Source: Tumebacillus lacus (GTDB taxonomy: Bacteria > Bacillota > Bacilli > Tumebacillales > Tumebacillaceae). Taken from it: a stretch of 64,000 bases of DNA. The notes beneath the pieces were generated by a model, which did not search any database, was not told where the DNA came from, and saw nothing but the letters and a program-made list of their open reading frames with translations. Location of the stretch: positions 372,001 to 436,000 of the forward strand of contig NZ_JAPMLT010000002.1 in NCBI RefSeq assembly GCF_026410385.1. Direction: 5' to 3'. How positions within the stretch are numbered: position 1 is the first letter of the stretch; each line of letters opens with the position of its first letter. This document shows positions 50,182 to 62,992 of this stretch, piece after piece. Position numbers and translations under genes: made by a program.

Positions 50182-50453
50182 GACTTTCACCTCTTTCCTG
50201 GTCATAGTTTTTGCCATGACCCTTTGTTCATACGAAAGGTAGTATAACACAATCTCTTTTTTGGATGCAAGAGACTCAGTTCCCTCATTTCTCGCTTGAA
50301 TAAAGATATCAACGTAAAAATGCTTTACAAACTTCAAATTAGAGTGTACTTTAAATATAGGGTCGCGAACCGTAACGAGTTACTTAATAGATAGAGAAAT
50401 TACATGAGTTTATTGTTCTTTGGAAAGTATGCAACAGAAGGAGTGAAGCAACA

Positions 50454-51743
50454 GTGGTTTCGTTGGGACAAAAAATCCGCGAGTTGCGTATCCGCAAAGG
50501 ATTGACGCAACAGGAGTTGGGCTCCGGTATCGTCACGATCTCGATGATCTCGCAGATCGAATCGGATAAAGCCTACCCGTCGCACAAAGTTTTAGAGCAG
50601 ATCGCTTCCCGTCTGGAGACGCCGATTGAGTATTTCGTCGCCGACATGCAGACGCAGATGGAGCAGAGCTCGATCTATAAATTGGCAAAGGCTTATTTGG
50701 CCGCCCAAAACTATGACATGGCGATCCCGCTGTTTCGGGATCTGATCTCGACCCCCGCGCCCCATCTCCCCGTGCATGAGGTGCAATACGACCTCGCCGA
50801 CGCGTTTTTGATGAGCGAAGAGGTGGAGAAGGCGGTCGAACTGTTTGAGCAGGTGCTGGACACGGTGGTACGCAAAAACGACAACCACTTCACCCTGCTG
50901 TGCTTGAACAAGCTCGGCGAAGCGCGCTATTCGCAAGAGAACTACCCGCTGGCTCTCTACCATTGGCGCAAAGCGTACGAGACGTTTTCCCGCGTCAAGG
51001 AGATCGACCCGTTCACCCGCGCCCGCATCATCTCCAACCTCGCGCACGCTCATTTTCAACTCGGTGAGTTTGAAGATGCGATCCGCTTCTATCAAGAGTC
51101 GTACAACCTGCTGCGCGGCAGCACCAACCTCCGCCAGTTGGCGGAGGTCTATCTGCGACTTGGCATCTCCTATCAGAAGATGCGCGAGTGGAGTCGCGCC
51201 GTCGACTATTGCCACGACGCGCTGACGATCTACGAGAGCCTGCAAAACATCAAGCAAGCGATCGATGTAAAAGCCAACTTTGCGCTGGTCGAGGCGGAGC
51301 AAGGCCGCACCGACGACGCGATCACGCTCTTGCACGAGTGCCTGAGCGAATACCGCCGTCAGGAGATCCCGGTCGACAGCGCGATGATCCACCGCGAGAT
51401 CGTGATGCTGTACGTGCGGGCCGGCCGCCTGCAAGAAGCGGAGGCGTTCTGCCAGGAGTCGCTGTTCCTGATGGCCGAGCAGCCGGAGCATCAAGCACAG
51501 ATCTACCACGCCCTCTCCGCTGTCAAACGCGAGCAAGGCGAGATCCCGGCCGCGATTGAATGGTTGAAACGCGCTTTGAACACGTTCCAAGAACGCAACC
51601 AACTGCGCGAGACCCGCTTGGCTTATCAAGAGCTGGCCAACCTGTATGAACACCTCGGCGATTATGTGATGGCAAACGACACGCTGCGGCAGATGAACGC
51701 GATCCTCGACACGTCGCTGCGCCGCATCGGTATCTTGGTCTAG
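50454..51743 (+). CDS. HTH-TPR quorum-sensing-type regulator (RRNPP, NprR-like)
   Basis: A 429-residue cytoplasmic regulator. Residues about 5-64 are an XRE helix-turn-helix (IRELRIRKGLTQQELGS...SMISQIESDKAYPSHKVLEQIA). From about 75 to the end come eight or nine tetratricopeptide repeats (for example YSQENYPLALYHWRKAYETF, FQLGEFEDAIRFYQESYNLL, YEHLGDYVMANDTLRQMNAI). This is the plan of NprR/PlcR-type RRNPP receptors. GTG 50454 has AAGGAG about 10 bases upstream. The gene is followed by its own terminator and, 311 bp later, by a 37-codon gene with features of a secreted pro-peptide. It interrupts the rho-rpmE neighbourhood seen in B. subtilis. Confidence 0.85.
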   Translation: MVSLGQKIRELRIRKGLTQQELGSGIVTISMISQIESDKAYPSHKVLEQIASRLETPIEYFVADMQTQMEQSSIYKLAKAYLAAQNYDMAIPLFRDLISTPAPHLPVHEVQYDLADAFLMSEEVEKAVELFEQVLDTVVRKNDNHFTLLCLNKLGEARYSQENYPLALYHWRKAYETFSRVKEIDPFTRARIISNLAHAHFQLGEFEDAIRFYQESYNLLRGSTNLRQLAEVYLRLGISYQKMREWSRAVDYCHDALTIYESLQNIKQAIDVKANFALVEAEQGRTDDAITLLHECLSEYRRQEIPVDSAMIHREIVMLYVRAGRLQEAEAFCQESLFLMAEQPEHQAQIYHALSAVKREQGEIPAAIEWLKRALNTFQERNQLRETRLAYQELANLYEHLGDYVMANDTLRQMNAILDTSLRRIGILV

Positions 51744-51772
51744 CCAGCACTTCAACTACGTGAGATGACCCG

Positions 51773-51797
51773 GCCCGCCGACTCTGGCGGGCTTTTT
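51773..51797 (+). terminator. Terminator after the RRNPP-type regulator
   Basis: GCCCGCC (51773-51779) and GGCGGGC (51786-51792), then T5. It separates regulator and peptide gene into two transcription units. Confidence 0.8.
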
Positions 51798-51816
51798 GTG
51801 TCACCTCCCGCTGTCA

Positions 51817-51848
51817 AACGGCGTGTAAAACGCCGTTAATCGGTTAAC
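51817..51848. promoter_or_regulatory. Two candidate operator palindromes upstream of the peptide gene
   Basis: AACGGCGT (51817-51824) and ACGCCGTT (51830-51837) form an 8-bp inverted repeat with 5-base centre. It overlaps GTTAA-TCGG-TTAAC (51835-51848). Both lie 75-105 bp upstream of the -35 box of the peptide gene. No T run follows, so they are not terminators. Binding of the upstream regulator is an inference. Confidence 0.45.
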
Positions 51849-51921
51849 ATTTTTGTAGAATCTTGTAGTTTGATGGCGCGATTTGTCTGAAAATATACGA
51901 TCTTTACTTTACATAATCTCA

Positions 51922-51949
51922 TTGTAATCATTCTTCCCTGCGTTATAAT
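51922..51949 (+). promoter_or_regulatory. Sigma-A-type promoter of the peptide gene
   Basis: -35 TTGTAA (51922-51927), 16-base spacer, -10 TATAAT (51944-51949), in an AT-rich stretch. It leaves a leader of about 100 bases before the GTG at 52055. Confidence 0.7.
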
Positions 51950-52054
51950 AAATATAAGACGGAGAACCCAAGCCGACTTACAAAGATACTCACCCGGAGA
52001 TGGCGTTCAGGAATCTTCTCGTCCTTGTTGATCAATTACATTGGAGGTCATCAC

Positions 52055-52168
52055 GTGAAGAAACACATGATTTCGACCATTTTTGCCGTTTGTAACCTTG
52101 TAAGCGACACGATCATGGGCTGGTGGAATGACCACGAGCCGAACGAGATCGCTCTCACTGTTGCCTAA
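52055..52168 (+). CDS. Putative signalling pro-peptide (37 aa), partner of the RRNPP-type regulator
   Basis: A 37-codon frame starting at GTG with GGAGG 7 bases upstream, a promoter of its own and a perfect terminator after the stop. The product begins MKKH, has a hydrophobic core from Met5 to Val16 like a short export signal, then a polar tail after Trp23-Trp24 (NDHEPNEIALTVA). This is the form of Phr, PapR and NprX pro-peptides, whose C-terminal 5-10 residues are the signal. Its place directly downstream of an HTH-TPR receptor is the hallmark of RRNPP pairs. The mature sequence cannot be deduced here; NEIALTVA or a part of it is the natural guess. Alternative: an unrelated small membrane peptide. 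Confidence 0.75.
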   Translation: MKKHMISTIFAVCNLVSDTIMGWWNDHEPNEIALTVA

Positions 52169-52179
52169 CAACCGAATGT

Positions 52180-52210
52180 AAAAAGCCTCGACATCTGTCG
52201 AGGCTTTTTT
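52180..52210 (+). terminator. Bidirectional terminator between peptide gene and radical SAM gene
   Basis: AGCCTCGAC (52184-52192) and GTCGAGGCT (52197-52205) with an ATCT loop, preceded by A5 and followed by T7. Confidence 0.9.
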
Positions 52211-52224
52211 TCCGGTTCCGGGGC

Positions 52225-53490
52225 TTATTTGTTGACGCGGCGCATCTGATCCGGCGGGATATGCGTGAAGGAGCCGATCACGGTGTTCGGGCACTCCTGA
52301 CGGAAGATCTCCATCATCGTCTTCATGCCGAGCAGATCGCCCCGCTGCTTGGGGATCTTCGACAGGTAGAGCTCCGGGTCGATGTTGAGGTTGCGCATCT
52401 GGATCAGCTTGACCTCGTTTTGGTTGATAAAGTCAACCATCGCCTCGATCTCCTCCTCCCGGTCGGTGACGCCGGGGAAGATCAGGTAGTTGATCGACGT
52501 GTAGACGCCTTTGTCAGCCGCGTATTTCAGCGAACGGCCGACGTTTTCCACACCGTAGAGGCGCGGGCGGTAGTATGCGTTGTAATGATCGTCGAGCGCC
52601 GAGATCGTCGACACGCGCATCAGATCGAGACCGGCGTCGGTGATCAGCTTGATCATGTCGGTCAAACCGGCGTTGGTGTTGATGTTGATAAAGCCTTTGT
52701 CGGTGACAGCCCGCACGCGGCGGATCGCTTCGGCGATGTCCACGCCGCGCGTCGACGGTTCGCCTTCGCAGCCTTGGCCGAAGGAGATGATGCCGTTTTC
52801 GGCAGTTTGGATGTGTTCGAGCATCAGTTCGACCATCTCTTCCACCGTCGGCTTGAAGTTCATCCGCACCTGCGGCGACGGGAACGGCATGTCCTCCGGT
52901 TGCTCGGAGATGCAGCCGACGCAGCCCGCGTTGCAGGTCGAGGACACCGGGAGCGCGCCTTCCCAGCGGCCGAAGAACGTGTTGCGCGAGGTGAGGCATT
53001 CATAGTGGAGGGCGCAGGTGGTCAGGTGTTGCCAGATGCGGTTCTCCGGGTATTTGGCGATCATCGCGTCGACCGCCTGTTGCGTGTCTTCCTGCGTGTA
53101 GTTGAGCGGGTTCCATTTGGTCCAGTCATCGACCATCTCCGCCGCCACGTAAAACGCGTCGTCTTTCCATACGACCGCCGTGTAGCCGAACAAAGGCATC
53201 GGTTCGGCATCGTCGCGCTTGGCATAGCCCGGCAGCAGCAGACGGGTGAAGCCCTGCGGCAACAGAGCGCCGACCGCCATCGCCTCGCCCGGCAGCGCGA
53301 GCGTTTTGCCCGACTCCGGGTCATACCCCAGCGCCCGCGTGCCCGGCAGCGACACCAGCGTCGCGCCGTCCGGGAGCGGGATCAGTTCTTCTTCATAGAT
53401 ATCGGTGAGAAATTCGCCGTTGCGTCCGAGCGCCTGCAGCTCCGGATGGTCGAAGATCTGTCCGTCTTTATCTGCATAGACAAGGTTCAT
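52225..53490 (-). CDS. Orphan radical SAM protein
   Basis: A 421-residue protein with the radical SAM cluster motif CNAGCVGC (CX3CX2C, about residue 190) in the middle of the chain. Residues 1-180 form an N-terminal part of unknown function. The barrel region includes ISFGQGCEGEPSTRGVDI (a GxGEP-like motif), FININTNAG and YLIFPGVTDREEEIEAMVDF. The pattern is MoaA/PflA-like. No SPASM cysteines and no recognisable RRE domain are visible. ATG 53490 is chosen since MNLVYADKDGQIFDHPEL is the natural start, with AGAGG close upstream. It is downstream of rho and convergent with the peptide gene. Substrate unknown. Confidence 0.75.
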   Translation of the reverse strand: MNLVYADKDGQIFDHPELQALGRNGEFLTDIYEEELIPLPDGATLVSLPGTRALGYDPESGKTLALPGEAMAVGALLPQGFTRLLLPGYAKRDDAEPMPLFGYTAVVWKDDAFYVAAEMVDDWTKWNPLNYTQEDTQQAVDAMIAKYPENRIWQHLTTCALHYECLTSRNTFFGRWEGALPVSSTCNAGCVGCISEQPEDMPFPSPQVRMNFKPTVEEMVELMLEHIQTAENGIISFGQGCEGEPSTRGVDIAEAIRRVRAVTDKGFININTNAGLTDMIKLITDAGLDLMRVSTISALDDHYNAYYRPRLYGVENVGRSLKYAADKGVYTSINYLIFPGVTDREEEIEAMVDFINQNEVKLIQMRNLNIDPELYLSKIPKQRGDLLGMKTMMEIFRQECPNTVIGSFTHIPPDQMRRVNK

Positions 53491-53539
53491 TGTCCTCTGA
53501 TACATCCTTTCTTGGTGAACATCTTTTATATAGTAACAC

Positions 53540-53572
53540 AAAGAGCCGAATGCATGTGCATTCAGCCCTTTT
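53540..53572 (-). terminator. rho terminator
   Basis: GCCGAATGCA (53545-53554) and TGCATTCAGC (53557-53566), with flanking A and T runs; on the minus strand it ends in CTCTTTG. Confidence 0.65.
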
Positions 53573-62623: not shown

Positions 62624-62992
62624 CTACACCAACTGTTCGTTGACAGCCGCGCGCAGTTCATCGATGTCAAACGGCTTGGTGAAGTGGGTCAACGCCCCCA
62701 GCACGGTCGCCTCTTTGATCAGGTCGAGCTCGCCGTATGCGGTCATCATGATCACTTTCGTATCCGGTTCGATCTCCCGGATGTGGCGCAGGATCTCAAG
62801 GCCGTCCATCCCCGGAATCTTCATGTCCAGCAAGACCAGATCGGGCTTTTCATCACGCACGATCTGCAGAGCGGTCACGCCGTTCGGCGCTTGGAAAATG
62901 GTGTAGCCCTCTTTGTCCAATACCTCATTCAACAACACGCGAATGCCGTACTGGTCGTCGACGATCAGAACTTTTTTATCCTTACTACCCAT
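62624..62992 (-). CDS. spo0F: Sporulation phosphorelay response regulator Spo0F
   Basis: A 122-residue single receiver domain that passes phosphate from the sporulation kinases to Spo0B. Acidic pocket Asp12-Asp13, phosphoacceptor Asp56 in LLDMKIPG, Thr84 and Lys106 are all present. It is the known target of Rap and NprR RRNPP proteins, of which two candidates occur in this window. A sigma-H-type promoter lies upstream. Followed by kal after 80 bp with no clear terminator, so read-through is possible. Confidence 0.96.

Follow-up and report, generated by a model that had tools for sequence, protein, structure and literature searches.

Within the window, that is, the whole 64,000-nucleotide stretch analysed here, a gene for an HTH-TPR protein is followed by a short frame, and the question arises whether the two act together in RRNPP-type quorum sensing by a peptide and, if so, which part of the short product is the signal. 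A preliminary description of the locus had read it as such a receptor with a secreted pro-peptide, and this reading was supported by the finding of the short frame downstream of the orthologous receptors in 7/7 genomes of the family.

The receptor gene and the pro-peptide gene

The receptor, a putative transcription factor of 429 aa, is encoded on the forward strand at 50454..51743 from a GTG start, and its terminator lies at 51772..51793 on the same strand; sequence and fold analysis together with Pfam confirmed both elements as originally described. Pfam matched HTH_3 (E 8e-10) and TPR_12 (E 1.7e-35), and an AlphaFold2 model obtained from an input of 46 sequences of collected loci (mean pLDDT 89.4, pTM 0.74) contained the HTH helices and nine TPR pairs. 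Taken together, they placed an N-terminal HTH at approximately residues 4-62, followed by nine helix pairs of the TPR type at 59-424, in agreement with the layout of RRNPPA receptors, in which an N-terminal HTH is combined with 5-9 TPRs at the C-terminus. In structural alignment, the TPR part of the model superposed on apo NprR (5dbk) with a Z of 25.4 and an rmsd of 5.8 over 346 residues (63-419 onto 64-418), and Rap structures were matched as well (RapI apo, Z 25.7). Since the eukaryotic LGN outscored both NprR and Rap (Z ~29-30), the TPR fold was regarded as generic, and the family assignment rests on the architecture together with the pro-peptide. A PDB sequence search with the receptor returned mostly generic TPR proteins, plus the HTH of PlcR. 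Asn152, Asn195, and Asn275 occupy like places in three TPR A-helices and were invariant in the five group members aligned, and are at most candidate counterparts of the TPR Asn that holds the peptide backbone in RapF (Asn227) and ComR (N208). Upstream of the gene, the element GCTTTACAAACTTCAAA..GTGTACTTTAA (50322..50356, forward strand) was kept in 7/7 orthologous loci in a MAFFT alignment, and is probably the receptor promoter or operator.

The pro-peptide gene MKKHMISTIFAVCNLVSDTIMGWWNDHEPNEIALTVA occupies 52055..52168 on the forward strand, starts with GTG, and encodes 37 aa with homologs in the family, for which no family match was found in Pfam, NCBIfam, or PHROGs. It is preceded by a ribosome-binding site, GGAGGT (52043..52048, forward strand), and a promoter, TTGTAA-16-TATAAT (51922..51949, forward strand; 10/12 matches), and is followed by a terminator hairpin (52180..52209, forward strand) with a perfect 13-bp stem and a T run (z = -6.8), which is symmetrical and also faces the convergent gene. 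The GTG frame, its GGAGG site, the TATAAT promoter, and the perfect terminator were thus all as had been described. One promoter-like site is about what chance would give (mean of 1.6 in shuffles), and the promoter owes its credibility to its conservation in all seven species, in the form TTGTAA/T-16-TATAAT; the hairpin was likewise present in all seven aligned loci. The product consists of a basic start and hydrophobic signal sequence (52055..52120, forward strand; 22 residues, as compared with ~27-28 in the relatives) and the element WWNDHEPN (52121..52144, forward strand), and its last 13 residues form a polar tail, correctly described before.

Upstream of the peptide promoter, an alignment of the seven loci revealed a conserved box, TTGTAGAATCTTGTAG (51853..51868, forward strand), which is a candidate regulator binding site and near-unique within the seven genomes. 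As a regulon finder, the box TTGTnnnAAnTTGTAG (51853-51868 and equivalents) was rejected, as its matches were too few to read a regulon. In some species it also resembles a Spo0A box (TTTGTCGTAAA); a Spo0A-box scan gave one-mismatch sites in two genomes, and sites with two mismatches in the window and in others. Autoregulation through one operator common to both promoters was also rejected, as no 9-11-base word was consistently shared. An inverted repeat, CCGGTC...GACCGG, lies between the peptide promoter and the ribosome-binding site in three species (L034, L035, and L036), and is absent from the window.

Conservation of the pair and the probable pheromone core

The comparison covered seven genomes of the Tumebacillus family (Bacillota), including the window genome (G000, 4.18 Mb), T. 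flagellatus (G002), T. permanentifrigoris (G003), and T. avium (G005). Each of the seven contained one clear receptor ortholog (E < 1e-246, 74-75% identity) and, 254-311 nt 3' of its stop codon on the same strand, a homologous short ORF with its own promoter and its own terminator. The DNA between the two genes was too diverged for a DNA search to detect it in the relatives, and the protein-level match of the short ORF is therefore not a mere likeness of near-identical DNA. Purifying selection on the short frame was evident between the relatives, with pN/pS values of 0.12-0.50 over residues 1-36 and 0.21 for the C-terminal core copies. Reference RRNPP pairs are spaced at -50 to 191 bp (PMC10075063); because the distance of 254-311 nt with an intervening terminator exceeds this, the pairing rests on co-conservation. 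Outside the family, the receptors found were all more distant; L097, the sole one of these with its downstream region read, lacked the WW peptide, and no other genome of the order contained the DNA pattern of the WW core. An origin from a mobile element was rejected, given the lack of any phage match, the identity of only 22-26% to the receptor's plasmid relatives, and the absence of any credible counterpart of the peptide on plasmids.

In the six relatives, the ORF (56-92 aa) comprises an MKK start, a hydrophobic stretch, a first core copy after the cleavage site, WW(N/S/T)(E/D)xxPN(H/I/V), and, beyond a spacer that varies in length, another copy, WW(N/S/T)(E/D)xxPNH, which forms the extreme C-terminus. 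After the MKK start, W23, W24, P29, and N30 (window numbering) were the sole residues invariant in the seven species. A degenerate 24-base pattern of the core matched one site in the window genome and two sites per genome in the remaining six, all of them at this locus; the reversed pattern, used as a control, gave 0 matches in the seven genomes, and among 399 Bacilli genomes there was one further, isolated match.

The preliminary description had sought the mature signal in the tail ending in NEIALTVA, and had proposed, as a check, to look for a short frame with a conserved C-terminus after each orthologous regulator. The frame was indeed conserved in 7/7 genomes, whereas the C-terminal tail of the window peptide had no counterpart in any relative; EIALTVA, which follows WWNDHEPN, aligned with nothing conserved. 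NEIALTVA was therefore rejected as the signal. The conserved part proved to be WWNDHEPN, just after the signal sequence, of which each of the six other species has two versions, and, as judged from these sequences, it is likely the pheromone core in the window species.

A small adjacent pro-peptide gene with a signal sequence, a feature of RRNPPA systems, was found in 7/7 genomes, the signal being clear in six and weak in the window. As judged by hydropathy, the relatives' signal peptides reached 2.4-3.1 over 10 residues, with G-A or A-x-A preceding WW, and the window pro-peptide was the weakest of the seven, with a hydropathy of 1.9, I-x-G before the core, one core copy, no final H, and a GTG start. 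RRNPPA systems also have a short conserved pheromone core, usually located at the C-terminus; six species have a core copy there, and the window has its only one at an internal position. Duplication of pheromones has been described for RRNPP systems (PMC9765709; PMC11343458), and internal ones are also known in RRNPP precursors (PMC11343458). The receptor tree grouped the window with T. permanentifrigoris and T. flagellatus (support 99/91), leaving T. avium and G004 outside; as the window receptor is nested in a two-copy group, a loss is the best account of the single core copy, and the window pro-peptide may be decaying.

Assignment of the locus and competing explanations

On this basis, the receptor and the short gene very probably constitute an RRNPP-type peptide quorum-sensing pair with a WW-core pheromone, and the best reading is an NprR-like architecture with a new pheromone code and a peptide gene transcribed apart from that of the receptor. 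In the proposed mechanism, the short gene would produce the pro-peptide from its own promoter, and the pro-peptide would be exported through its signal sequence (presumably by Sec in the relatives). Signal peptidase would cut directly before WW, and further extracellular trimming might release a peptide of ~8-9 residues with the core WWxxxxPN(H). An Opp-type importer would return it to the cell, by analogy with described systems, and the peptide would bind to the concave side of the nine-TPR domain and change the DNA binding of the HTH receptor. Among peptide-bound receptors of the RRNPP family, both activation and inhibition occur (PMC11343458). The earlier proposal of a link to sporulation was drawn from the distance of ~10.5 kb to spo0F (62624..62992, reverse strand; assigned by reading its sequence), and distance is no evidence. 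The link is unsupported and weak; a receptor with an HTH would rather be expected to work at promoters.

The short ORF might be a real pheromone precursor across the family but a degenerating remnant in the window species, where the C-terminal copy was lost, export is hampered, and the receptor either needs no such peptide or responds to a different one. The single core, the shortened h-region, and the lack of an A-x-A site and of a final H in the window copy would fit such a fate, as would the position of the window receptor in the tree, where every other member of its group carries two copies. However, the window frame is open, its core, ribosome-binding site, promoter, and terminator are intact, and the receptor is intact and conserved. 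Moreover, one internal core followed by a short tail is likewise seen in a paralogous pro-peptide of G001 (L053), in which ..KTQA precedes the near-identical core IWNEHEPM and VITNAL follows it, and whose partner receptor is just ~35% identical to the window receptor. We consider a remnant rather unlikely.

It is quite improbable that the pro-peptide signals to another receptor, with the adjacency reflecting inherited order only. Candidates would be sister receptors without a pro-peptide of their own, as in the clade of L002, L037-L039, and L080, which retains the three Asn residues; nevertheless, the adjacency was kept in 7/7 genomes despite otherwise divergent intergenic DNA. Adjacency of receptor and peptide genes is the rule in the RRNPP family (PMC9765709).

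The notion that the ORF encodes a secreted antimicrobial or RiPP peptide, controlled by the HTH-TPR protein rather than acting as its ligand, is very improbable. It draws on the radical SAM gene at 52225..53541 (reverse strand), which is convergent with the peptide gene beside it, in the relatives too, and whose product might modify the tryptophans; repeated cores, moreover, occur in RiPP precursors also. Yet the radical SAM protein is encoded once per genome in 45/151 Bacilli genomes, some of them from families that lack the WW peptide, it matched no RiPP-maturase model and only distant MoaA-type ones, and the core is small and coincides with the protein end in the relatives. A role as a dedicated maturase was accordingly rejected, its distribution being far wider than that of the peptide. 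The protein obtained no specific NCBIfam name and no sequence relative in the PDB, and is a conserved orphan enzyme.

That the short ORF is a chance frame within a small RNA gene is hardly credible, for although a separate promoter, a terminator, and a leader of 100 nt would suit an RNA gene, conservation was at the protein level with synonymous changes, no Rfam match was found, and the leader folded no better than shuffles.

Relation to known systems and to the paralogous receptors

The WW pair, as a probable quorum-sensing system, recalls NprR-NprX of the Bacillus cereus group, with which it shares an HTH and nine-TPR receptor, whose model superposed over the entire TPR domain, and a short secreted pro-peptide gene downstream. 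HTH plus nine well-kept TPRs correspond to the NprR/QssR clan (PMC12700828), and the nine repeats of the window receptor are non-degenerate; repeated pheromones are also common in NprR pro-peptides (PMC9765709). On the other hand, receptor identity is low (12% in the structural alignment), the window pro-peptide gene stands behind a terminator at a distance of ~300 nt, and the WWxxxxPN(H) core is unlike NprX. The receptor tree contained no NprR sequences. NprX is of the SKPDI/V type.

The AloR-AloP systems of Paenibacillaceae (PMC7425212) are similar in their many HTH-TPR receptors per genome, most of which are followed by small pro-peptide genes. AloP genes, however, lie directly downstream in an operon, an arrangement absent from the window pair with its separate promoter, intervening terminator, and spacing of 254-311 nt; AloR TPRs are divergent, whereas those of the window receptor score strongly in Pfam, and AloR homologs have been reported essentially only in Paenibacillaceae (PMC7425212). 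With type II ComR-ComS of Streptococcus, the mature peptide of which requires a double tryptophan for activity (PMC5131902), the likeness is by analogy only. ComR has five TPRs (PMC12700828) as opposed to nine in the window receptor, and ComS, the shorter peptide, contains no repeats and does not leave the cell by Sec (PMC9765709), whereas the relatives of the window peptide carry Sec-type signal sequences; the window pair thus shows neither the five TPRs nor the Sec-less precursor of ComR-ComS. The RRNPP_detector survey (PMC10075063), with its range of -60..400 bp, could have captured the T. avium pair, which may be present unnamed in its data set; it mentions Alicyclobacillaceae, and its main text names neither Tumebacillus nor the WW core.

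The window genome encodes ~19 full-length HTH-TPR paralogs, and pro-peptide-like frames were found at or just after the stop codon of at least seven HTH-TPR genes, divergent ones counted. Duplicated pheromone-like units recur among them, namely, ALFEGPEPLAPK twice in L006, VAVE.G.GPL twice in L019, and SINDPT twice in L067 of a relative; the duplicated-unit pro-peptides of L006, L019, L067, and L068 overlap or lie close to the receptor stop codon. Unlike in these pairs, the peptide gene of the WW pair has its own promoter and terminator. In L063, L064, and L065, receptor paralogs are followed by a large secreted protein in place of a pro-peptide. The nearest sister clade, that of L002, L037, L038, L039, and L080 (~1501-2784), is conserved throughout the family and retains the TPR asparagines, but has no adjacent pro-peptide.

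A broader scheme, which we hold to be distinctly unlikely, would make the WW peptide a family-wide Tumebacillus signal read both by its own HTH-TPR partner and by the sister receptors without a pro-peptide; other paralogous pairs would rely on pheromones of a related W/F-x4-P kind, such that one duplicated precursor would feed a branching and partly cross-talking network. In the literature found, no peptide signalling has been described for Tumebacillus, and the pair supplies a concrete, testable signal, a WW...PN peptide of 8-9 residues that comes in seven natural variants and in both single and double precursors, alongside a large set of paralogous receptors. The WW system is thereby suited to the questions of why pheromones duplicate and how signals stay distinct within receptor families.
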